Below are positions 50,537 through 61,551 of a DNA stretch of 64,000 nucleotides, in pieces. Position numbers and translations under genes: made by a program. Under the pieces are notes generated by a model. The model had not been told where the DNA came from. It saw only the letters and a program-made list of their open reading frames with translations, and ran no database searches. This DNA comes from Eudoraea chungangensis (GTDB lineage: Bacteria; Bacteroidota; Bacteroidia; Flavobacteriales; Flavobacteriaceae), in NCBI RefSeq assembly GCF_029360665.1, contig NZ_JARDUB010000003.1, forward strand, positions 248,001-312,000. Direction: 5' to 3'. Positions within the stretch are counted from its first letter, which is position 1. Each line of letters starts with the position of its first letter.

Positions 50537-51970
50537 ATGACAAGAAAGAATTTCAAACAAGAACTCCAAGACGAGGTCTTTCCAATAATCGCAAAATCAG
50601 CTGCGGATATTGGTATAGATTGCTATGTTATTGGAGGGTTTGTTAGAGATCTAATGCTTCACAAGAAAATACCAAAAGACATTGACATTGTAGCCGTAGG
50701 AAGTGGAATAGCACTGGCCAAAAAGGTTGCGGAAGCAATACCTGGAAAACCAAAAATTTCTGTTTTTAAAAACTTTGGAACTGCTATGATCAGGCACAAG
50801 GCTTTAGAGCTAGAATTTGTAGGTGCAAGAACAGAAAGTTATCAGGCAGACAGCAGAAAGCCCTTTGTAGAGAACGGAAGTTTGTTTGAAGATCAAGAAA
50901 GAAGAGACTTTACCATCAATACAATGGCCATTTCTCTAAACCAAGAAAACTATGGGGATTTAATCGATCCATTTGACGGCATAAAAGATCTCAAACAAAA
51001 ACTTCTTAAAACACCTTTAGAGCCTAATATCACCTACTCAGATGATCCTTTACGGATGATGAGGGCTATTCGTTTTGCCACGCAACTAGGTTTTACTATT
51101 CAAGACGAGTCTTTACTCGCCATAAGCTCTAACAGAGACCGAATTAAAATTGTTTCTAAAGAACGTATTATCGACGAGTTTAATAAAATACTATTAAGTC
51201 CTGTGCCATCTGTTGGAATAGTACTCCTTCATGAAACAGGTCTTCTTCCCTTGCTTTTCCCTGAATTAAAGGCGCTTCAGGGTATAGAAGAAATAGAAGG
51301 TCAACGACATAAAGATAACTTTTGGCATACACTAGAGGTTGTAGATAACATCTCAAAAGCCACTGATAATCTTTGGCTGAGATGGGCCGCCCTGTTGCAT
51401 GATATCGGAAAAGCCCCAACAAAAAAGTTCGATAAGAAAGTTGGGTGGACTTTCCACGGTCATGAATTTGTGGGATCAAAAATGGTATACAAACTTTTTC
51501 GAAGACTCCACCTTCCCCTAAATGAAAAAATGAAATTTGTACAAAAAATGGTACGAATGAGTTCAAGACCAATAATTTTGGCGGAAGATCATATTACAGA
51601 TTCTGCCATTAGAAGGTTGGTTTTTGACGCCGGTAATCATGTAGAGGATCTAATGACCCTTTGTGAAGCAGATATAACCACAAAAAACCCAAGAAAACAA
51701 CAACGATATAAAAATAATTTTAAACGCGTAAGAAATAAAATAGTAGAAGTTGAAGCCCGGGATAGCCTTAGAAATTTTCAACCTCCTGTCAGTGGTGAAG
51801 AAATTATGAAAACTTTTAATTTGAAACCCTCAAGGGAGATTGGTATTATTAAAGAAGCTATTAAAGAAGCAATTCTAGAAGGAGAAATACCTAATGATCA
51901 TGATAAGGCTTTCGAGTATATGTTAAAAAAAGGGGAAAAACTAGGTCTGAAAGTAAATCCGAAAAGGTAA
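50537..51970 (+). CDS. CCA tRNA nucleotidyltransferase with HD domain
   Basis: Adds or repairs the CCA end of tRNAs. The class II nucleotidyltransferase head includes YVIGGFVRDLML, KDIDIVAVG (catalytic Asp-x-Asp), RRDFTINTMAI and DPLRMMRAIRFATQLGF. An HD phosphohydrolase domain follows: RWAALLHDIGKAPTKKFD and FHGHEFVGSKM. The C-terminal helical domain contains EARDSLRNFQPPVSGEEI. At 477 residues it is the long bacterial form. The next gene on the strand is the giant surface protein 314 bases later. Confidence 0.92.
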   Translation: MTRKNFKQELQDEVFPIIAKSAADIGIDCYVIGGFVRDLMLHKKIPKDIDIVAVGSGIALAKKVAEAIPGKPKISVFKNFGTAMIRHKALELEFVGARTESYQADSRKPFVENGSLFEDQERRDFTINTMAISLNQENYGDLIDPFDGIKDLKQKLLKTPLEPNITYSDDPLRMMRAIRFATQLGFTIQDESLLAISSNRDRIKIVSKERIIDEFNKILLSPVPSVGIVLLHETGLLPLLFPELKALQGIEEIEGQRHKDNFWHTLEVVDNISKATDNLWLRWAALLHDIGKAPTKKFDKKVGWTFHGHEFVGSKMVYKLFRRLHLPLNEKMKFVQKMVRMSSRPIILAEDHITDSAIRRLVFDAGNHVEDLMTLCEADITTKNPRKQQRYKNNFKRVRNKIVEVEARDSLRNFQPPVSGEEIMKTFNLKPSREIGIIKEAIKEAILEGEIPNDHDKAFEYMLKKGEKLGLKVNPKR

Positions 51971-52284
51971 TTGCAAACAGTTAAATTTAGGAAATTAACA
52001 GTATATGTCCTTAATATCGAACTTGTGTATTTATGAAAACGAGTCAATCAACGACCAATTATCCCATACATATAAAATATATTTAGACCTAACAAACTAA
52101 TAGTAACTTTACCAACAAGATTAAGTACAGACCCCAATCTATGCGAACAAATACCTATACCAACATGCTATCTTCATCGATACCATATATTCTTTTAGGT
52201 ATTTACTATACTTTGTAACCACTGTAATCGTTATAAAGGGAGTTCATCTTAATTTTCATTTAAAAGAACTTGAAATTCGAGAGA
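51971..52284 (+). other. Intergenic region upstream of the giant surface-protein gene
   Basis: This 314-bp AT-rich gap contains no convincing gene, tRNA or exact TAnnTTTG box. TATACTTTG at about 52208-52216 is one base too long to match. The promoter of the giant gene is probably in here but I cannot place it. Confidence 0.5.
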
Positions 52285-55200
52285 ATGCAATATTTAATTG
52301 AAAATATAAAGTCAGTATCCAAAATCCTTAAAGTAGCATTTTTAAGGCCCATAACTGAATGGCAATATTTAAGACAGACCAGTCCTTCAGAAACACAACA
52401 AAAAGACTTATTCAGGACCCGATATTCTAATCCAAGTGTAATTCTTTTGCTGGTAAGTATTCTATTCTTAGCAAACATGAATTCTGGTCTCGCTCAATGC
52501 TCAGACACCTCTCCTTTGGCAGATTGTGATGGGGATGGGGTACTAAATGGAGCAGACCTCGATGACGATAACGATGGTATCTTGGATACTAATGAATACG
52601 ATTGCACCCCTGGCTCTCTGCTTTGGGGAGCATCTACCTGGACTGGAGGTGATCCTGACGATGATTTTGCCTCCAGTGCCACAACAACTATAAATGGAAT
52701 TGATATTGTAGCCGACAATAGCGCTACTAACTTTGGTGTTCTTAGTACCTATTCTGCCTTAGAAGGAACTACCTTTAATGGAAAAAATGGCCTGCTTCTT
52801 CAGGCAGATATCGGACAACTAGACGACGAACCTATTCTTTATAATTTAAGTTTTGATACTCCTGTAACCAATCTAAGTTTTAGCCTGGTAGATGTTGATA
52901 AAAGAATACCTACCGACCTGCCTGCTGGGGATACCTATACAGATCAAGTAGTCGTTGTAGCTTCCAATAACGGTACCAATGTAATTCTGACTCCAGGAGT
53001 AGACTATACTGTAGGTAGTGCAGTGGATGACTTAACCGGAGGTGTCTTCCAGGGGAATGCTTTGGTGGGTAATGTAAACACCACAGACGCCGATGTAATT
53101 TTTACCATTAGTGAACCTGTAGACAACATCTCTATTGCTTTTAGTAATACCATCCCCAGCACGGGTACCGACAATACCGCCCTACTTATTTCAGACCTGA
53201 GCTGGAGCTGTAACTTTAGAGATACCGATAATGATACCTTTCCCGATAATGTAGATAACGATAGTGATGGAGATGGATGTGCCGATGCTCTGGAAGGTAA
53301 CGGAGGATTTGTCTTAGCAGATCTTAATCCGGATCAGAGCCTTTCCGGGGCTATTAACTTAACCAATGGAATTCCTGTTATTGCAGTAGGAGGGCAGGCA
53401 GATGTAAGTAGTACGAATAATACCATTACTTCACCAGAATGCGACGACGACGGAGATACCGTAAGCAATGCTTTAGATGTATGTGACGGTGGAAATGACA
53501 CTTTAGATGCAGACCTGGATGGCGTTCCTAATGCCTGTGACCTCGATGACGATAACGATGGTATCTTGGATACTAATGAATACGATTGCACCCCTGGCTC
53601 TCTGCTTTGGGGAGCATCTACCTGGACTGGAGGTGATCCTGACGATGATTTTGCCTCCAGTGCCACAACAACTATAAATGGAATTGATATTGTAGCCGAC
53701 AATAGCGCTACTAACTTTGGTGTTCTTAGTACCTATTCTGCCTTAGAAGGAACTACCTTTAATGGAAAAAATGGCCTGCTTCTTCAGGCAGATATCGGAC
53801 AACTAGACGACGAACCTATTCTTTATAATTTAAGTTTTGATACTCCTGTAACCAATCTAAGTTTTAGCCTGGTAGATGTTGATAAAAGAATACCTACCGA
53901 CCTGCCTGCTGGGGATACCTATACAGATCAAGTAGTCGTTGTAGCTTCCAATAACGGTACCAATGTAATTCTGACTCCAGGAGTAGACTATACTGTAGGT
54001 AGTGCAGTGGATGACTTAACCGGAGGTGTCTTCCAGGGGAATGCTTTGGTGGGTAATGTAAACACCACAGACGCCGATGTAATTTTTACCATTAGTGAAC
54101 CTGTAGACAACATCTCTATTGCTTTTAGTAATACCATCCCCAGCACGGGTACCGACAATACCGCCCTACTTATTTCAGACCTGAGCTGGAGCTGTAACTT
54201 TAGAGATACCGATAATGATACCTTTCCCGATAATGTAGATAACGATAGTGATGGAGATGGATGTGCCGATGCTCTGGAAGGTAACGGAGGATTTGTCTTA
54301 GCAGATCTTAATCCGGATCAGAGCCTTTCCGGGGCTATTAACTTAACCAATGGAATTCCTGTTATTGCAGCAGGAGGGCAGGCAGATGTAAGTAGTACGA
54401 ATAATACCATTACTTCACCAGAATGCGACGACGATAATGACGGCCTTACCAACGGAGAAGAAGCAATTCTATTAACCGATCCAGATAATCCAGATACGGA
54501 TTCTGACAACCTAAACGACGGCGACGAAGTAAATGTAGAAAATACAGACCCTTTAGATCCGGATACAGATGGAGATGGCGAGATCGATGGAGATGAAGTC
54601 TTGGCAACCACAGATCCTTTAGACCCATGCGACCCTGTACAAGCAGCAGGATATACAGGATACGATGCTGCCAACCCTATTTGGGCAGCCGCCGATTGTG
54701 ATAGCGATGGTGTAACTAATGGCGACGAAGATACCAATGGTACCGATCCTTATTTGGCTTCAGGAGATACCGATGGAGATGGTATCATTGACGATATCGA
54801 AATTAATGATGGTAATGATCCCAATGATCCTTGTGATCCTGTACAAGTGGCAGGATATACCGGCTATGATGCAGCCAATCCAATTTGGGCTGCAGCCGAC
54901 TGCGATAGTGACGGGGTTACTAACGGCGATGAAGATACCAACGGAACAGATCCCTATGCCGTATCAGGGGATACTGACGGTGATGGAATAGATGACGATA
55001 ACGAAACAAATCTGGCGACCGATATTAACGATCCTTGTGATCCGGTACAAGTGGCAGGCTATACAGGCTATGATGCAGCCAATCCTATTTGGGCTGCAGC
55101 CGACTGCGATAGTGATGGGGTTACCAACGGGGATGAAGATACCAACGGAACAGATCCCTATGCCGTATCAGGGGATACTGACGGTGATGGAATAGACGAC

Positions 55201-58200
55201 GATAACGAAACAAATCTGGGGACCGATATTAACGATCCGTGTGATCCAGGACAGCTTGCAGGCTATACAGGCTACGATGCAGCCAATCCTATTTGGGCTG
55301 CAGCCGACTGCGATAGTGACGGGGTTACCAATGGCGATGAAGATACCAACGGAACAGATCCCTATGCCGTATCGGGGGATACTGACGGTGATGGAATAGA
55401 CGACGATAACGAAACAAATCTGGCGACCGATATTAACGATCCTTGTGATCCGGTACAAGTGGCGGGCTATACAGGCTACGATGCAGCCAATCCTATATGG
55501 GTGGCAGCCGACTGCGATAGTGATGGGGTTACCAACGGAGATGAAGATACCAACGGAACTGATCCTTATGCCGTATCCGGGGATACCGACGGTGACGGGG
55601 TGGATGATGATAACGAAACAAATCTGGGAACCGATATTAACGATCCTTGTGATCCGGTACAGCTTGCTGGCTATAATGGCTACGATGCAGCCAACCCTAT
55701 TTGGGCAGCGGCAGACTGTGATGGCGATGGGGTTACCAATGGGGATGAGGATACCAACGGAACAGATCCTTACGCCGTATCAGCCGATACTGATGGCGAT
55801 GGAATAGACAATGATAATGAAATTAACGATGGCACCGACTTAAATGTCCCTTGTGATCCTGTACAAGCTCCAGGCTATACAGGCTACGACGCAGCCAATC
55901 CAATTTGGGCTGGGGCAGACTGCGATAGTGATGGCGTTACCAACGGCGAAGAAGACACCAATGGTACCGATCCTTATTTCGCTTCAGGAGATACCGATGG
56001 AGATGGTATCATTGACGACATTGAAATTAATAATGGTACCGATCCAAATGCTCCATGTGATCCTGTACAAGCTCCAGGCTATACTGGCTATGATGCAGCC
56101 AATCCAATTTGGGCTGCGGCCGACTGCGATAGCGATGGGGTTACCAACGGAGATGAAGATACCAACGGAACTGATCCTTATGCTGTATCGGGAGATACCG
56201 ACGGCGATGGCGTAGATGATGATAATGAAATAAATCTGGGCACCGATATTAACGATCCTTGTGACCCTGCACAGTTGGCTGGTTATACGGGCTACGATGC
56301 AGCCAATCCAATTTGGGCGGCAGCTGACTGCGATAGTGATGGGGTTGCCAATGGCGATGAAGACACCAATGGTACCGATCCTTATTTTGCTTCAGGAGAT
56401 ACCGATGGAGATGGCATCATTGACGATATCGAAATTAATGATGGTAATGATCCAAATGATCCTTGTGATCCTGTTCAAGTGGCAGGCTATACCGGCTATG
56501 ATGCAGCCAATCCTATTTGGGCTGCAGCCGACTGCGATAGTGACGGGGTTACTAACGGCGATGAAGATACCAACGGAACAGATCCGTATGCGGTATCCGG
56601 AGATACAGACGGTGATGGGGTAGACAACGACAATGAAATAAATCTGGGCACCGATATTAACGATCCTTGTGATCCGGCACAGTTGGCTGGTTATACGGGC
56701 TACGATGCAGCCAATCCTATTTGGGCTGCAGCTGATTGCGATATGGATGGGGTAACTAACGGAAATGAAGATACCAATGGAACTGATCCTTATGAAATAT
56801 CTGGAGATACTGATGGAGATGGAATCATTGACGACATTGAAATTAATAATGGTAACGATCCAAATGATCCTTGTGATCCTTTACAAGTGGCAGGATATAT
56901 CGGCTATGATGCAGCCAATCCAATTTGGGCGGCAGCAGATTGCGATGGCGACAGTGTAAGCAACGGCGATGAAGACACTAATGGAACAGATCCCTATTTC
57001 GCTTCAGGAGATACCGATGGAGATGGCATCATTGACGACATTGAAATTAATGATGGCAACGACCCCAATGATCCATGTGATCCCGCACAAGTGGCAGGTT
57101 ATACCGGCTACGACGCGGCCAACCTCATTTGGGCGGCAGCCGACTGCGATAGTGATGGAGTTACCAACGGCGATGAAGATACCAACGGAACTGATCCCTA
57201 TGCCGTATCTGCCGATACCGATGGTGACGGAGTTGACGACGATAATGAAATAAATCTGGGGACCGATATTAACGATCCTTGTGACCCTGTACAGGTGGCA
57301 GGATATACCGGCTACGACGCAGCCAATCCAATTTGGGCGGCGGCAGACTGTGATAGTGATGGGGTTACCAATGGCAATGAAGATACCAACGGAACTGATC
57401 CCTATGCCGTATCTACTGATACCGATGGTGACGGAGTAGACGACGATAACGAAATAAATTTAGGGACCGATATTAACGATCCTTGTGACCCTGTACAGGT
57501 TGCAGGATATACCGGCTACGACGCAGGCAATCCTATTTGGGCAGCAGCAGACTGTGATAATGATGGGGTTTCCAACGGGGATGAAGATACCAACGGAACA
57601 GATCCTTATGCCGTATCCGGAGATACTGATGGTGACGGGGTTGATGATGACAACGAAATTAACAATACAACAGATCCTAATGCCCCATGTGATCCTGTAC
57701 AAGTAGCAGGCTATACTGGCTACGACGCAGCCAATCCAATTTGGGCGGCGGCAGACTGCGATGGCGATGGCGTAACCAATGGAGATGAAGATACTAACGG
57801 AACAGATCCATACGCCGTATCGGCCGATACCGATGGTGACGGGGTGGATGATGATAACGAAATAAATTTAGGGACTGATATTAACGATCCTTGTGATCCA
57901 TTACAGTTGGCAGGCTATACCGGCTACGATGCAGCCAATTCTATTTGGGCAGCGGCAGACTGTGATGGTGATGGCGTAACCAACGGCGATGAAGATACTA
58001 ACGGTACGGATCCATACGCCGTATCAGCAGATACCGATGGAGATGGCTTAGAGAATGACATTGAAACAAATAATGGCACCGATCCGAATGACCCTTGTGA
58101 CCCTGTGCAAGTGGCAGGCTATGCGGGCTACGATGCTGCCAATCCTATTTGGGCCGCAGCTGATTGTGATGGTGACGGCGTTACCAACGGCGATGAAGAC

Positions 58201-59430
58201 ACCAATGGTACTGATCCTTATGCTGTATCAGGGGATACCGACGGCGATGGAGTAGACGACGACAACGAAATTAGTCTGGGGACAGATATTAATAATCCCT
58301 GTGATCCGGTACAAGTGGCAGGTTATACAGGCTACGATCCAGCCAATCCAATTTGGGCTGCAGCTGATTGCGATATGGATGGGGTAACCAATGGCGATGA
58401 AAATACCAATGGTACTGATCCTTACCTTGCATCTGCAGACACCGATGGAGATGGCATTATAGACGACATTGAAATTAACAATGGCACGGATCCGAATGCA
58501 CCTTGTGACCCAATACAGCTTGTAGGCTACACGGGTTATGACGCAGCCAATCCTATTTGGGCCGCAGCTGATTGCGATAGCGACGGACTAACAAATGGGG
58601 ATGAGGATACCAATGGTACCGATCCTTATTTGCCAAATATTGATACGGATGGCGACGGTATTGATGACAATGTTGAAACAGACAATGGAACAGATCCTAA
58701 CAATCCTTGCGATCCGGCACAAACTTCTGGCTATACAGGCTATGATTCTAACAACAATATTTGGGGAAGTGCTGATTGTGACCAAGATGGTCTGACTAAT
58801 CAGGAAGAATTTGTCTTGGGCACCGATCCTTATAATCCTGATACCGATGGGGATACTATAAATGATGGGCAGGAAGTTCTTGATAATACAAATCCATTTG
58901 ATGACTGTGATTCTATAGGAGGAACCCCACTTCCTACAAGTATTTGTAATACAGATTCTGACGGAGACGGTCTAACCGATACTCAAGAAGAGGCGCTAGG
59001 AACGGATCCAAATAATCCAGATACCGATGGTGATACAATAAATGATGGACAAGAAGTCGCAAATAATACCGATCCATTAAACCCTTGTGATTCTCTAGGG
59101 GGAACACCTCCAGAAGGCTCTGTTTGTGAAATAACCATTGGAAATACAATTATAACGGCAGATGGTGATGGAATTAACGACTATTTCAATATCATAGATA
59201 TTGAGTCATTTCCTGTAAACGAAGTGGAAATATTCAATAGATGGGGAGCCAGTGTATTTAAAGCTTCAGGATATGACAATACTACAAAAGTATTTAGAGG
59301 GATTTCTGAAGGAAGTGGCACCATTAATAAGGGAGATGGATTACCACCAGGTGTATACTTCTATATCATTAAATACTTTAACAACAATAATCCGCAGAAC
59401 CTATCAGGGTATTTATATATAAACAGATAG
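52285..59430 (+). CDS. Giant thrombospondin type 3-like repeat surface protein with type B type IX secretion signal
   Basis: A 2381-residue, highly acidic exported protein. The N-terminus is a 50-residue polar leader, then a hydrophobic core (about 51-63) and likely cleavage near Ala70. Residues 91-389 and 419-717 are two nearly identical modules, each with a beta-rich segment (GDPDDDFASSATTTING) framed by Ca-binding-type motifs. Residues 782-2141 are 20 repeats of 68 residues, each with CDP, GYTGYDAANPIW, an ADCDSDGVTNGDED motif and a DTDGDGxxDDxE motif. A degenerate repeat and more such motifs follow. The last ~95 residues (TADGDGINDYFN, VEIFNRWGASVF, PPGVYFYIIKY) are a gliding motility-associated type B sorting domain. 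ATG 52285 was preferred to TTG 52270. It is probably a cell-surface adhesin. Confidence 0.88.
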   Translation: MQYLIENIKSVSKILKVAFLRPITEWQYLRQTSPSETQQKDLFRTRYSNPSVILLLVSILFLANMNSGLAQCSDTSPLADCDGDGVLNGADLDDDNDGILDTNEYDCTPGSLLWGASTWTGGDPDDDFASSATTTINGIDIVADNSATNFGVLSTYSALEGTTFNGKNGLLLQADIGQLDDEPILYNLSFDTPVTNLSFSLVDVDKRIPTDLPAGDTYTDQVVVVASNNGTNVILTPGVDYTVGSAVDDLTGGVFQGNALVGNVNTTDADVIFTISEPVDNISIAFSNTIPSTGTDNTALLISDLSWSCNFRDTDNDTFPDNVDNDSDGDGCADALEGNGGFVLADLNPDQSLSGAINLTNGIPVIAVGGQADVSSTNNTITSPECDDDGDTVSNALDVCDGGNDTLDADLDGVPNACDLDDDNDGILDTNEYDCTPGSLLWGASTWTGGDPDDDFASSATTTINGIDIVADNSATNFGVLSTYSALEGTTFNGKNGLLLQADIGQLDDEPILYNLSFDTPVTNLSFSLVDVDKRIPTDLPAGDTYTDQVVVVASNNGTNVILTPGVDYTVGSAVDDLTGGVFQGNALVGNVNTTDADVIFTISEPVDNISIAFSNTIPSTGTDNTALLISDLSWSCNFRDTDNDTFPDNVDNDSDGDGCADALEGNGGFVLADLNPDQSLSGAINLTNGIPVIAAGGQADVSSTNNTITSPECDDDNDGLTNGEEAILLTDPDNPDTDSDNLNDGDEVNVENTDPLDPDTDGDGEIDGDEVLATTDPLDPCDPVQAAGYTGYDAANPIWAAADCDSDGVTNGDEDTNGTDPYLASGDTDGDGIIDDIEINDGNDPNDPCDPVQVAGYTGYDAANPIWAAADCDSDGVTNGDEDTNGTDPYAVSGDTDGDGIDDDNETNLATDINDPCDPVQVAGYTGYDAANPIWAAADCDSDGVTNGDEDTNGTDPYAVSGDTDGDGIDDDNETNLGTDINDPCDPGQLAGYTGYDAANPIWAAADCDSDGVTNGDEDTNGTDPYAVSGDTDGDGIDDDNETNLATDINDPCDPVQVAGYTGYDAANPIWVAADCDSDGVTNGDEDTNGTDPYAVSGDTDGDGVDDDNETNLGTDINDPCDPVQLAGYNGYDAANPIWAAADCDGDGVTNGDEDTNGTDPYAVSADTDGDGIDNDNEINDGTDLNVPCDPVQAPGYTGYDAANPIWAGADCDSDGVTNGEEDTNGTDPYFASGDTDGDGIIDDIEINNGTDPNAPCDPVQAPGYTGYDAANPIWAAADCDSDGVTNGDEDTNGTDPYAVSGDTDGDGVDDDNEINLGTDINDPCDPAQLAGYTGYDAANPIWAAADCDSDGVANGDEDTNGTDPYFASGDTDGDGIIDDIEINDGNDPNDPCDPVQVAGYTGYDAANPIWAAADCDSDGVTNGDEDTNGTDPYAVSGDTDGDGVDNDNEINLGTDINDPCDPAQLAGYTGYDAANPIWAAADCDMDGVTNGNEDTNGTDPYEISGDTDGDGIIDDIEINNGNDPNDPCDPLQVAGYIGYDAANPIWAAADCDGDSVSNGDEDTNGTDPYFASGDTDGDGIIDDIEINDGNDPNDPCDPAQVAGYTGYDAANLIWAAADCDSDGVTNGDEDTNGTDPYAVSADTDGDGVDDDNEINLGTDINDPCDPVQVAGYTGYDAANPIWAAADCDSDGVTNGNEDTNGTDPYAVSTDTDGDGVDDDNEINLGTDINDPCDPVQVAGYTGYDAGNPIWAAADCDNDGVSNGDEDTNGTDPYAVSGDTDGDGVDDDNEINNTTDPNAPCDPVQVAGYTGYDAANPIWAAADCDGDGVTNGDEDTNGTDPYAVSADTDGDGVDDDNEINLGTDINDPCDPLQLAGYTGYDAANSIWAAADCDGDGVTNGDEDTNGTDPYAVSADTDGDGLENDIETNNGTDPNDPCDPVQVAGYAGYDAANPIWAAADCDGDGVTNGDEDTNGTDPYAVSGDTDGDGVDDDNEISLGTDINNPCDPVQVAGYTGYDPANPIWAAADCDMDGVTNGDENTNGTDPYLASADTDGDGIIDDIEINNGTDPNAPCDPIQLVGYTGYDAANPIWAAADCDSDGLTNGDEDTNGTDPYLPNIDTDGDGIDDNVETDNGTDPNNPCDPAQTSGYTGYDSNNNIWGSADCDQDGLTNQEEFVLGTDPYNPDTDGDTINDGQEVLDNTNPFDDCDSIGGTPLPTSICNTDSDGDGLTDTQEEALGTDPNNPDTDGDTINDGQEVANNTDPLNPCDSLGGTPPEGSVCEITIGNTIITADGDGINDYFNIIDIESFPVNEVEIFNRWGASVFKASGYDNTTKVFRGISEGSGTINKGDGLPPGVYFYIIKYFNNNNPQNLSGYLYINR
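52555..53450 (+). repeat. 896-bp direct repeat, copy 1
   Basis: The segment recurs at 53539-54434 with a constant offset of 984 bases. In my reading the only difference is T at 53387 against C at 54371, changing Val to Ala. It lies wholly within the giant gene and keeps the frame. Confidence 0.9.
53539..54434 (+). repeat. 896-bp direct repeat, copy 2
   Basis: Second copy of 52555-53450. The two copies are separated by 88 unique bases coding for a TSP3-like linker (DVCDGGNDTLDADLDGVPNA). Copy 2 leads into a different sequence (DDDNDGLTNGEEAIL), whereas copy 1 leads into the linker. Confidence 0.9.
54628..58707 (+). repeat. Tandem array of 20 in-frame 204-bp repeats
   Basis: The array is exactly 20 x 204 bp; each unit begins with a TGC/TGT Cys codon of CDP. 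The first unit starts at 54628, the second at 54832 and the twentieth at 58504. No unit contains an indel. A degenerate 21st unit starts at 58708 (CDPAQTSGYTGYDSNNNIW). The first half of each unit is nearly constant, and the second half exists in a few variants. Confidence 0.92.
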
Positions 59431-59431
59431 C

Positions 59432-60388
59432 ATGAAAAACAAAAGCATTTCTATAGTAAAATTTGGCATTTTGTTGCTTCCATTCTTCTTAATAAATATA
59501 GGAGAAGTAAAAGCACAGCAAGATCCGAATTATACACAATACATGTTAAATACCATGGTAATTAACCCTGCCTATGTCGGATCCAGGGGTGTTGTCAGTG
59601 TTGGGGGACTCTATAGATCCCAATGGATGGGATTAGAAGGAGCGCCAAAAACCCAAACCTTTAACGTAGAAACACCTGTTGGAGAAAATATGGGTCTTGG
59701 TTTTTCGATAGTTAACGACAATATTGGCGATGGCACCGTCCAAGAAACTTATTTTGATGTGGCCTTTTCTTATACCATAAAAGTAAATGATGAAAGTAAT
59801 TTGGCCTTTGGAATAAATGCCGGTGGTGATCTGTTAAACATAGATTTTACCAACCTAATTAATTATGGGATTGAGCCAAATTTAACCAATATTGACAACA
59901 AATTTTCTCCAAATTTTGGAGTTGGAGCCTATTACTATACGGAAAAGTTTTATGCAGGAATCTCAGTTCCCAGTTTATTAGAAACGGAACATTTTGAAAA
60001 CTCAGATGACAGCAGTAGTTCTTTCTTAGCTACTGAACGAATGAACTTCTACTTCACTTCTGGTTATATCTTTGAATTAGATAGAAAGACTAAACTTAGG
60101 CCGAGTGTTCTAGTAAAGGCTGTTAGTGGGGCACCAGTACAAGTAGATTTGTCTGCGAACTTTCTTTTTAATGAGAAATTTACCGCAGGGGCGGCTTATC
60201 GATTCGGTTCGTCTTTAAGCGCTCTCTTCGGTTTTCAAATTACTGAAAAACTAATGTTAGGACTGGCTTACGATGTCGCTACTACACAATTAGGAAGCAC
60301 TACCTTCAACGACGGATCCTTTGAAGTATTTTTGCGTTTCGACTTTATATCTAGATACAGACGAGAGGTAACTAATAAATTCTTTTAA
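59432..60388 (+). CDS. PorP/SprF-family type IX secretion outer-membrane protein
   Basis: A 318-residue protein with a signal peptide (LLPFFLINIGEVKAQ) and the PorP/SprF opening QDPNYTQYMLNTMVINPAYVGSRG (described across two elements). GLYRSQWMGLEGAPKTQTF, GLGFSIVNDNIGDGT and alternating outer-membrane strands follow, ending in a terminal aromatic-rich strand (EVFLRFDFIS). SprF is needed for surface export of the SprB adhesin, and such proteins are usually paired with type B substrates. It starts 1 base after the giant gene's stop, so it is probably that protein's dedicated partner. Confidence 0.9.
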   Translation: MKNKSISIVKFGILLLPFFLINIGEVKAQQDPNYTQYMLNTMVINPAYVGSRGVVSVGGLYRSQWMGLEGAPKTQTFNVETPVGENMGLGFSIVNDNIGDGTVQETYFDVAFSYTIKVNDESNLAFGINAGGDLLNIDFTNLINYGIEPNLTNIDNKFSPNFGVGAYYYTEKFYAGISVPSLLETEHFENSDDSSSSFLATERMNFYFTSGYIFELDRKTKLRPSVLVKAVSGAPVQVDLSANFLFNEKFTAGAAYRFGSSLSALFGFQITEKLMLGLAYDVATTQLGSTTFNDGSFEVFLRFDFISRYRREVTNKFF

Positions 60389-60489
60389 CATTATACCTCT
60401 GGCATTTTAAAGACATACATCTTTGTTATCCAACCTGCATTCTCGAATAAATGTCCTCTTATTTCACTGATAAAAATAATTAAGTGTAG

Positions 60490-60497
60490 TATTTTTG
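60490..60497 (+). promoter_or_regulatory. Putative -7 box for ctaA
   Basis: TATTTTTG matches TAnnTTTG, 19 bases before the ATG at 60517. Confidence 0.45.
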
Positions 60498-60516
60498 TAG
60501 TCCCTTAAGTTACTGC

Positions 60517-61551
60517 ATGCAACGACACTTTATTAAAATTGCGAAAATTTCCTTGATACTGGTCTATTTAGTAATTATTGCGGGAGCAGTAGTTAGAATG
60601 ACGGGCAGTGGTATGGGTTGTCCCGATTGGCCCAAGTGTTTTGGATATTATATTCCTCCAACAGACATCGAGCAATTGATCTGGAAGTCTAATCACAACT
60701 ATAAAAGTGGTCAGGTCATTATCCTAAATGAATCTTTATTTGTAGCTAGGGACAACTTTTCATCCGGGACAATTCTAGATCCAATAAATTGGGAGGTCTA
60801 TTCAAAACACGACTACGCTGTCTTTAATGCTTCCCATACTTGGATAGAGTTTATCAATCGTTTATTTGGTGCTTTGGCCGGAATCGCGACCTTGATAACG
60901 GCAATAATTTCAATCACATTTTGGAAACAAAATAAAAAAATCACCTTAATTTCCTGGTTTATAGTGTTTTGCATGGGGTTTCAAGCCTGGCTAGGCGCAA
61001 CTGTGGTGTATTCTGTTTTAGAACCTGTTAAAATTAGCATACATATGTTAATGGCTTTATTAATAGTTGCCTTATTAATCTATCTAATCCATTATAGCTC
61101 TCACAAAAAAACTAGGGCAGTATTGAGCCGTTTGGATTTTAGGTTATTAGGCGTGGCTTTTGGTTTAACGATTATTCAGATTGTGTTTGGTATACAGGTT
61201 AGACAGTTTATAGATGAGCAGGGAGAGCTTCTTGGGTTAGATCTAAAAGCCTTCTTTCTTCAAGACCCAATTTGGTCGTTTTACGTGCATAGATCTTTAT
61301 CAATCTTAGTCTTTCTGGTGAATATTTTTTTGGCAAGGTCAATTTTTAAGAAAGCGCCGAGCTATCCTCAAATGAAATGGATTCTTTTGTTACTTTTCAT
61401 GGAAATTGGAACGGGAATACTCATGTACTATATGGCTTTTCCTTTTGGCAGTCAACCTTTGCATCTCATTTTTGCCGCACTTCTATTTGGCATACAATTT
61501 CATTTTGTTTTGGAAGCTAGAGAACGACAAAATACTGGTATTTCTTTGTAA
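60517..61551 (+). CDS. ctaA: Heme A synthase (COX15/CtaA family)
   Basis: Oxidises heme O to heme A for cytochrome aa3-type terminal oxidases. It is a polytopic protein of 344 residues with the family start VRMTGSGMGCPDWPKCFG, which holds a Cys pair. Heme-ligand His residues lie in ASHTWIEFINRLFGAL, ISIHMLMALLI, YVHRSLSI and QPLHLIFAAL, and LGATVVYSVLEP is typical. The long first loop (residues about 50-105) is usual for Bacteroidota. It is not linked to other oxidase genes in the window. Confidence 0.92.
   Translation: MQRHFIKIAKISLILVYLVIIAGAVVRMTGSGMGCPDWPKCFGYYIPPTDIEQLIWKSNHNYKSGQVIILNESLFVARDNFSSGTILDPINWEVYSKHDYAVFNASHTWIEFINRLFGALAGIATLITAIISITFWKQNKKITLISWFIVFCMGFQAWLGATVVYSVLEPVKISIHMLMALLIVALLIYLIHYSSHKKTRAVLSRLDFRLLGVAFGLTIIQIVFGIQVRQFIDEQGELLGLDLKAFFLQDPIWSFYVHRSLSILVFLVNIFLARSIFKKAPSYPQMKWILLLLFMEIGTGILMYYMAFPFGSQPLHLIFAALLFGIQFHFVLEARERQNTGISL

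Follow-up and report, generated by a model that had tools for sequence, protein, structure and literature searches.

The window, as the whole stretch of 64,000 nucleotides of Eudoraea chungangensis DNA analysed is called here, holds a gene for a 2386-residue protein built around 20 tandem units of 68 residues, and directly downstream a gene of the PorP/SprF family. The best explanation, which we hold to be probable, is that the large protein is a type B cargo of the type IX secretion system (T9SS), a non-gliding, calcium-stiffened adhesin stalk with a beta-rich head. The repeat, the domains, the gene pair and the missing cysteine motif of the carrier can be read directly in the sequence. Its kind of repeat is a known one, of which the protein is an example unusual for its length and regularity; the points of interest are the unbroken regularity of the array, the missing cysteines of the carrier, and the fresh duplication of the head.

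In the mechanism proposed, the protein would be exported by Sec, and T9SS would then read the C-terminal CHU_C domain and hand the cargo to the PorP/SprF-family protein encoded by the next gene, so that it would be held in the outer membrane. The stalk would consist of the 20 units and the cap, stabilised by Ca2+ and braced by disulfides, and would keep the probable adhesive head, which is the duplicated beta-rich domain, at a distance from the cell. Unit number would change by gain or loss of inner units, edge units being kept.

Reading frame, repeat units and predicted folds

The features of the locus are listed in Table 1. The listed start of the cargo ORF is a TTG, with an in-frame ATG 5 codons downstream; a hydrophobic signal-like stretch, VILLLVSILFLANMNSGLAQ, was recognized by eye.

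Table 1. Features of the cargo gene and of the adjacent carrier gene (positions in the window)
Feature	Position	Strand	Evidence or remark
Cargo ORF, 2386 aa	52270..59430	+	ORF list; Pfam TSP3_bac and CHU_C
Head duplication, copy 1, with a beta-rich domain of ~207 aa	52555..53450	+	895/896 identical to 53539-54434
Head duplication, copy 2	53539..54434	+	AlphaFold pLDDT 89.8, mainly strands
Acidic TSP3-like lead-in, irregular, ahead of the array	54424..54627	+	
20 tandem 68-aa units, each with 2 Cys and a pair of acidic loops at EF-hand spacing	54628..58707	+	
Cap, a diverged 21st unit	58708..58905	+	more like a unit from L041 than those of its array
Irregular C-terminal TSP3_bac repeats	58906..59130	+	best TSP3_bac stretch at residues 2229-2250
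CHU_C / T9SS type B sorting domain	59137..59421	+	PF13585 1.7e-21, residues 2290-2384
PorP/SprF-family carrier, 318 aa, cysteine-free	59432..60388	+	PF11751 2.3e-87; TIGR03519 3.8e-81

Tandem Repeats Finder delimits a 204-bp array at 54634-58629, with 80% matches and 0% indels. The first-pass annotation had described 20 in-frame 204-bp units without any indel, and both this result and the register count from 54628, which yields 20 units of 68 residues, agree with it. That there are exactly 20 is a choice of register, given the diverged 21st unit that starts at 58708; over 63 residues this unit matches the unit HMM with 66.5 bits, whereas the other 20 score 122.5-134.9 bits. Units are on average 79% identical at the DNA and 85% at the protein level (190 pairs).

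Two cysteines and two Asp-rich motifs had been assigned to each 68-residue unit, and all 20 units have them. Cys1 and Cys24 are invariant, as are Asp23, Asp25, Asp27, Asn31 and Glu34 in the first acidic loop and Asp47, Asp49, Asp51 and Glu58 in the second, residue 55 being Asp in 17 units and Asn in 3. Ligands of EF-hands are spaced 1, 3, 5, 9, 12, and both loops fit this spacing in all 20 units when Asn is allowed for Asp at residue 55; the hydrophobic residue of the array loops is at loop position 7, versus 8 in the EF-hand rule. EF-hand-spaced loops number 56 in the whole protein, 40 of them in the array, while 500 residue shuffles of the protein gave 3.1 on average and never more than 9. 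The array loops are thus spaced as calcium ligands, and their sequence suggests that they bind calcium; disulfides between the cysteines and stiffness of the array are likewise expected.

The motifs, earlier called TSP3-like, are of the bacterial type: TSP3_bac matches the protein with an E value of 1.5e-48 (162.6 bits vs a Pfam cut-off of 25). The likeness does not extend to classical TSP_3 (PF02412), which has no match in the ORF at E<=0.001 in a profile search of the own genome; the only match in this genome at that threshold lies in contig C1, under the cut-off of the family. A LytB_SH3 match (Pfam, 2.3e-06, 28 bits, cut-off 25.8) was ascribed to repeated composition; no stretch passes by itself, and the best one spans 13 residues within the array. 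The repeat of this array is not described in the titles or abstract openings among the literature matches listed.

Three units were modelled with AlphaFold from a 74-row alignment, without calcium. Adjacent units are confidently predicted to fold (pLDDT 96.1, pTM 0.79), short helices ending each acidic loop. The PDB fold search returned no chain at E<=0.001 and three matches at E<=10 for this model; the best of them, the periplasmic part of a Capnocytophaga OmpA (E 0.06, TM 0.18), was set aside. The unit profile found nothing at 0.01 among PDB sequences, and at E<=10 six weak, non-significant matches (best 0.078), to proteins having EF-hands. With its invariant ligands, confident predicted fold and no significant PDB match, the repeat offers a clean model unit for bacterial TSP3 stalks.

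The two head copies, absent from the first-pass annotation, form an 896-bp in-frame duplication upstream of the array, with a longest exact stretch of 832 bp and an in-frame spacer between the copies; judged by this near-identity, it is the freshest rearrangement of the locus. A single head copy is present in each of six other named-record ORFs (L018, L020, L022, L023, L041, L043), and two diverged copies in the relative G086, which showed no units over the stretch read. The head domain, modelled as 53584-54204, is predicted to be mainly beta (pTM 0.88). No PDB fold match reached E<=0.001, yet the first 11 rows are all antigen I/II V-region structures (best E 3.1e-3), matched only weakly, at TM 0.36-0.44; PrgB ranks 13 and GbpC 22, with carbohydrate-binding modules lower. 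Domains of the V-region kind are polymer adhesins built on a beta-sandwich core (PMC7726212). Because of these weak fold matches to V-region adhesin domains, the model suggests a role of the head in adhesion. The head profile gave one weak match among PDB sequences, an ADP-ribosyltransferase (E 0.083), treated as due to chance.

Sorting domain, carrier gene and genomic setting

The CHU_C domain (PF13585) closing the protein scores 76.5 bits against a Pfam cut-off of 27; TIGR04131 scores 27.6 bits at the same end, under its NCBIfam cut-off of 35. The carrier gene begins one base after the ORF (PF11751, 293.5 bits). PorP-like carriers are binding partners of type B proteins (PMC9143113), and two type B proteins depend on cognate carriers for secretion (PMC12618676). 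By analogy, the CHU_C domain and the adjacent PorP/SprF gene would mark a T9SS type B surface protein, and export of the 2386-residue protein to the cell surface by T9SS is likely on the same grounds; the first-pass annotation, which spoke of a giant surface protein, is supported by both features. In the own genome, profile searches detected SprA_N, 14 CHU_C matches and 9 PorP/SprF matches. Contig C9 of this genome (8260 bases; L143, G000:C9:1-3000) starts within an open frame that ends in CHU_C, and a PorP/SprF gene comes next; the assembly may have truncated a second large cargo here.

The association holds for many relatives carrying the unit. Among 43 array-gene C-termini, that of Eudoraea included, 32 match CHU_C and 4 Por_Secre_tail (E<=0.001), and 11 are without CHU_C. 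When the 38 array ORFs having a stop and >1.5 kb of downstream sequence were considered (the Eudoraea ORF among them), a PorP-like ORF was found at <=600 bp in 23 and none within 600 bp in 15. Fragmented or tandemly copied genes account for some of the array ORFs without a nearby PorP-like ORF or CHU_C.

SprF, the carrier of SprB, is connected with GldK through its Cys-X-Cys tail, and helical movement is not sustained without this tail (PMC12635249). A scan for cysteines found none in the 318 residues of the Eudoraea carrier, which is therefore devoid of the SprF motif tying adhesins to the gliding track, and the cargo is, because of this, probably not towed along the track like SprB. The own-genome carrier paralogs L014 and L015 do bear a C-terminal Cys-X-Cys. 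The operons of static type B proteins are associated with a PorE-like gene (PMC12618676), but the gene after the Eudoraea carrier is CtaA/COX15 (Pfam), not PorE-like, so the argument for a lack of gliding movement comes solely from the missing carrier cysteines. A gliding adhesin like SprB, which its carrier moves along the cell, would also have a type B C-terminal domain, a PorP/SprF carrier and SprA_N in the genome, and dynamic F. johnsoniae substrates likewise have no PorE-like gene directly after the pair (PMC12618676); set against a carrier with zero cysteines, in a genome where two other carriers have the tail, this alternative appears distinctly unlikely. The Cys-X-Cys tail of carriers might separate type B adhesins that glide from those that are static. 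A testable rule is sharpened in this way, namely whether cysteine-free PorP/SprF carriers mark stationary, not gliding, T9SS adhesins.

The cargo-carrier pair resides between the genes for a CCA nucleotidyltransferase, upstream, and CtaA (51970-60517). In all seven congeners where CCA was found, this gene directly adjoins CtaA, with no carrier match between; CCA had no match at threshold in two less complete congeners. In Croceivirga lutea (L028), a 13-unit array ORF and a carrier lie between CCA and CtaA, as in Eudoraea; the Eudoraea head domain has no match in L028. The pair may have been lost in the congeners, or inserted in an ancestor.

Distribution of the unit and variation in array length

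A three-unit scan of named genomes detected 62 loci, mostly from Flavobacteriaceae by title. They occur in Muricauda/Flagellimonas, Maribacter, Zobellia, Croceivirga and Cellulophaga, which we take to belong to this family, and a few in Lewinella, Phaeodactylibacter and Saprospiraceae. At 1e-20 the unit matches 11 of 198 genomes, the own genome counted, and none of the 9 congeners.

Arrays were compared in 54 ORFs with >=3 units from 46 sources, the Eudoraea window included. The commonest unit spacings are 62 aa (203 cases) and 68 aa (128 cases). Units of the two lengths share the first ~42 residues and differ in the region of the second loop; two cysteines are found in 202/203 of the former and 122/128 of the latter. 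More units than in Eudoraea (21, cap included) were counted in 5 of the 53 other ORFs (23 to 36), in interrupted series. The Eudoraea array is the longest unbroken run, with 21 units at exact period vs 17 elsewhere, or vs 20 elsewhere if steps of 60-72 are allowed. Unit counts are lower bounds for 22 of the 54 ORFs, which are cut by a contig end. These broken genes, and the 832 exact bases of the head duplication, which are beyond short reads, could point to an assembly artefact in the Eudoraea unit count or in the duplication; the array, however, lies within contig C3, contains no repeated 72-mer and keeps the frame throughout, and the head copies differ by one base with an in-frame spacer between them, which makes an artefact highly improbable.

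Natural arrays vary widely in length, and include old (Eudoraea) and apparently freshly rearranged examples. Units, cap included, number 10 in L018, 9 in L023, 9 in L041, 6 in L022 and 4 in L043, ORFs sharing the head with Eudoraea. In the closest pair, L018 and L020, carriers are 99.0% and front parts 95.6% identical, and the arrays have 10 vs 5 units. The first (93%), penultimate (91%) and cap (97%) units match in position, so inner units were lost or gained. The short count of L020 may reflect assembly collapse, because the array includes a frame break and an odd step of 254 bp, not a multiple of 204. When L018:10001-12037 and L020:10265-11331 are compared, the frame break of L020 can be read as a sequencing fault or a true frameshift. 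Exact stretches shared within arrays reach 121 bp in L018, 355 bp in L023 and 848 bp in L027 (Flavobacteriaceae bacterium MAR_2010_72, protein of 3365 aa), and such stretches are apparently signs of recent exchange.

The Eudoraea array looks older, because synonymous differences are high (190 pairs: mean pS 0.63, mean pN 0.09, median dS 1.28) and no exact repeat exceeds 71 bp. A part of it is younger, since identity among units 1 to 3 (numbering from zero) is 94-95%. For 20 of the 21 units the nearest neighbour at the DNA level, in comparisons without gaps, is in the same gene, and the array therefore expanded, or was homogenised, in its own lineage; the exception is the cap, 72% identical to a unit of L041 and 54% to its own array. 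Own-gene neighbours are rare in Maribacter (3/30 units in L032, 0/18 in L045), where the pattern differs because sister species were in the comparison set. Over 3462 aa, L030 and L032 of Maribacter share 95.3% identity without a unit-sized gap, the difference between the automatic counts (34 vs 35) being due to the scoring of a divergent stretch. In the Zobellia proteins L031 and L033 (>5000 aa, 90% identical), two 108-aa blocks differ outside the 62-aa run, and constitute a separate length-variable repeat. The likeness of adjacent Eudoraea units (lag 1) was reached by 455 of 5000 shuffles, and is not clearly above that of a shuffled order. Higher-order blocks of units were rejected, signals at lag 2 (106/5000 shuffles) and lag 8 (134/5000) being too weak among the ten lags.

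The idea that stalk length changes by recombination thus agrees with the different lengths found in relatives, L018/L020 included, but is more weakly supported for the Eudoraea copy, given its short exact repeats and high pS and the lack of a unit-sized gap in the Maribacter pair. The same data bear on a contingency locus, in which unit number would often change in the population by slippage or unequal recombination, tuning the length of the stalk. The halved array of L020 at near-identical carriers, its matching edge and missing inner units, the long exact stretches in L018, L023 and L027, and in Eudoraea itself the own-gene neighbours and the close likeness of units 1 to 3 would all suit such a locus. 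We consider it unlikely, as the L020 count may be an assembly fault, L030/L032 show no unit-sized gap, adjacent Eudoraea units are not clearly more alike than shuffled ones, and synonymous divergence far exceeds nonsynonymous; near-identical units, the mark of a phase-variable locus, are not found in the Eudoraea array (79% mean identity, exact repeats <=71 bp).

A static adhesin stalk changing in length by its inner units is preferred, and a bolder reading of the same array, which we regard as very unlikely, makes of it a ruler of nearly fixed length. If true, selection would hold 68 residues and two calcium sites per unit, while synonymous sites diverge, by drift or under selection of their own; this divergence would protect the array from unequal recombination, of which relatives with long exact repeats still show signs. 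Adaptation would take place at the other end of the protein, where heads are duplicated and swapped, and carriers free of cysteine would mark out, as a class of their own, T9SS stalks that are static and do not glide.

Comparison with known systems

RTX adhesins and SiiE, which has calcium sites, differ from the Eudoraea protein in secretion route and repeat fold. They are likened to it by function, since they work as tandem calcium-binding stalks (PMC7493085, PMC6272769). CHU_C is the anchor in 134 fibrillar-adhesin-like proteins, all from Bacteroidetes, according to PMC8286594, the main text of which contains neither 'TSP3' nor 'thrombospondin'. Of the traits of fibrillar adhesins, the Eudoraea protein has the tandem stalk and the anchor, and a head whose fold match to V-domains is weak.

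Acidic, EF-hand-spaced loops are common to the Eudoraea protein and bacterial TSP3 repeat proteins (TSP3_bac), from which it differs for the strict length of the unit, 68 aa, and a conserved Cys/Tyr/Trp stretch. NCBIfam matches to CglD (78.4 bits, cut-off 400) and MtsD (26.2 bits, cut-off 800) are sub-threshold. The first ~42 residues of the unit are shared with L018, L022, L023, L041, L043, L028 and the Maribacter loci L030, L032 and L037. A PorP-like gene is directly next in 8 of these 9 loci, the contig of L030 ending 182 bp after the gene. Unit number differs from that of Eudoraea in these loci, and units are mostly of 62 aa in the three from Maribacter; Eudoraea has two head copies, versus one in L018, L022, L023, L041 and L043, and none found in L028.

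The closest parallels in organization are SprB-SprF, Fjoh_3952-Fjoh_3951 and PG1035-PorP, in which, as in the Eudoraea pair, a cargo gene ending in CHU_C is followed directly by a gene of the PorP/SprF family. Relative to these systems, the Eudoraea carrier is without the SprF Cys-X-Cys tail, and the stalk is made up of 68-aa units of the TSP3 type.
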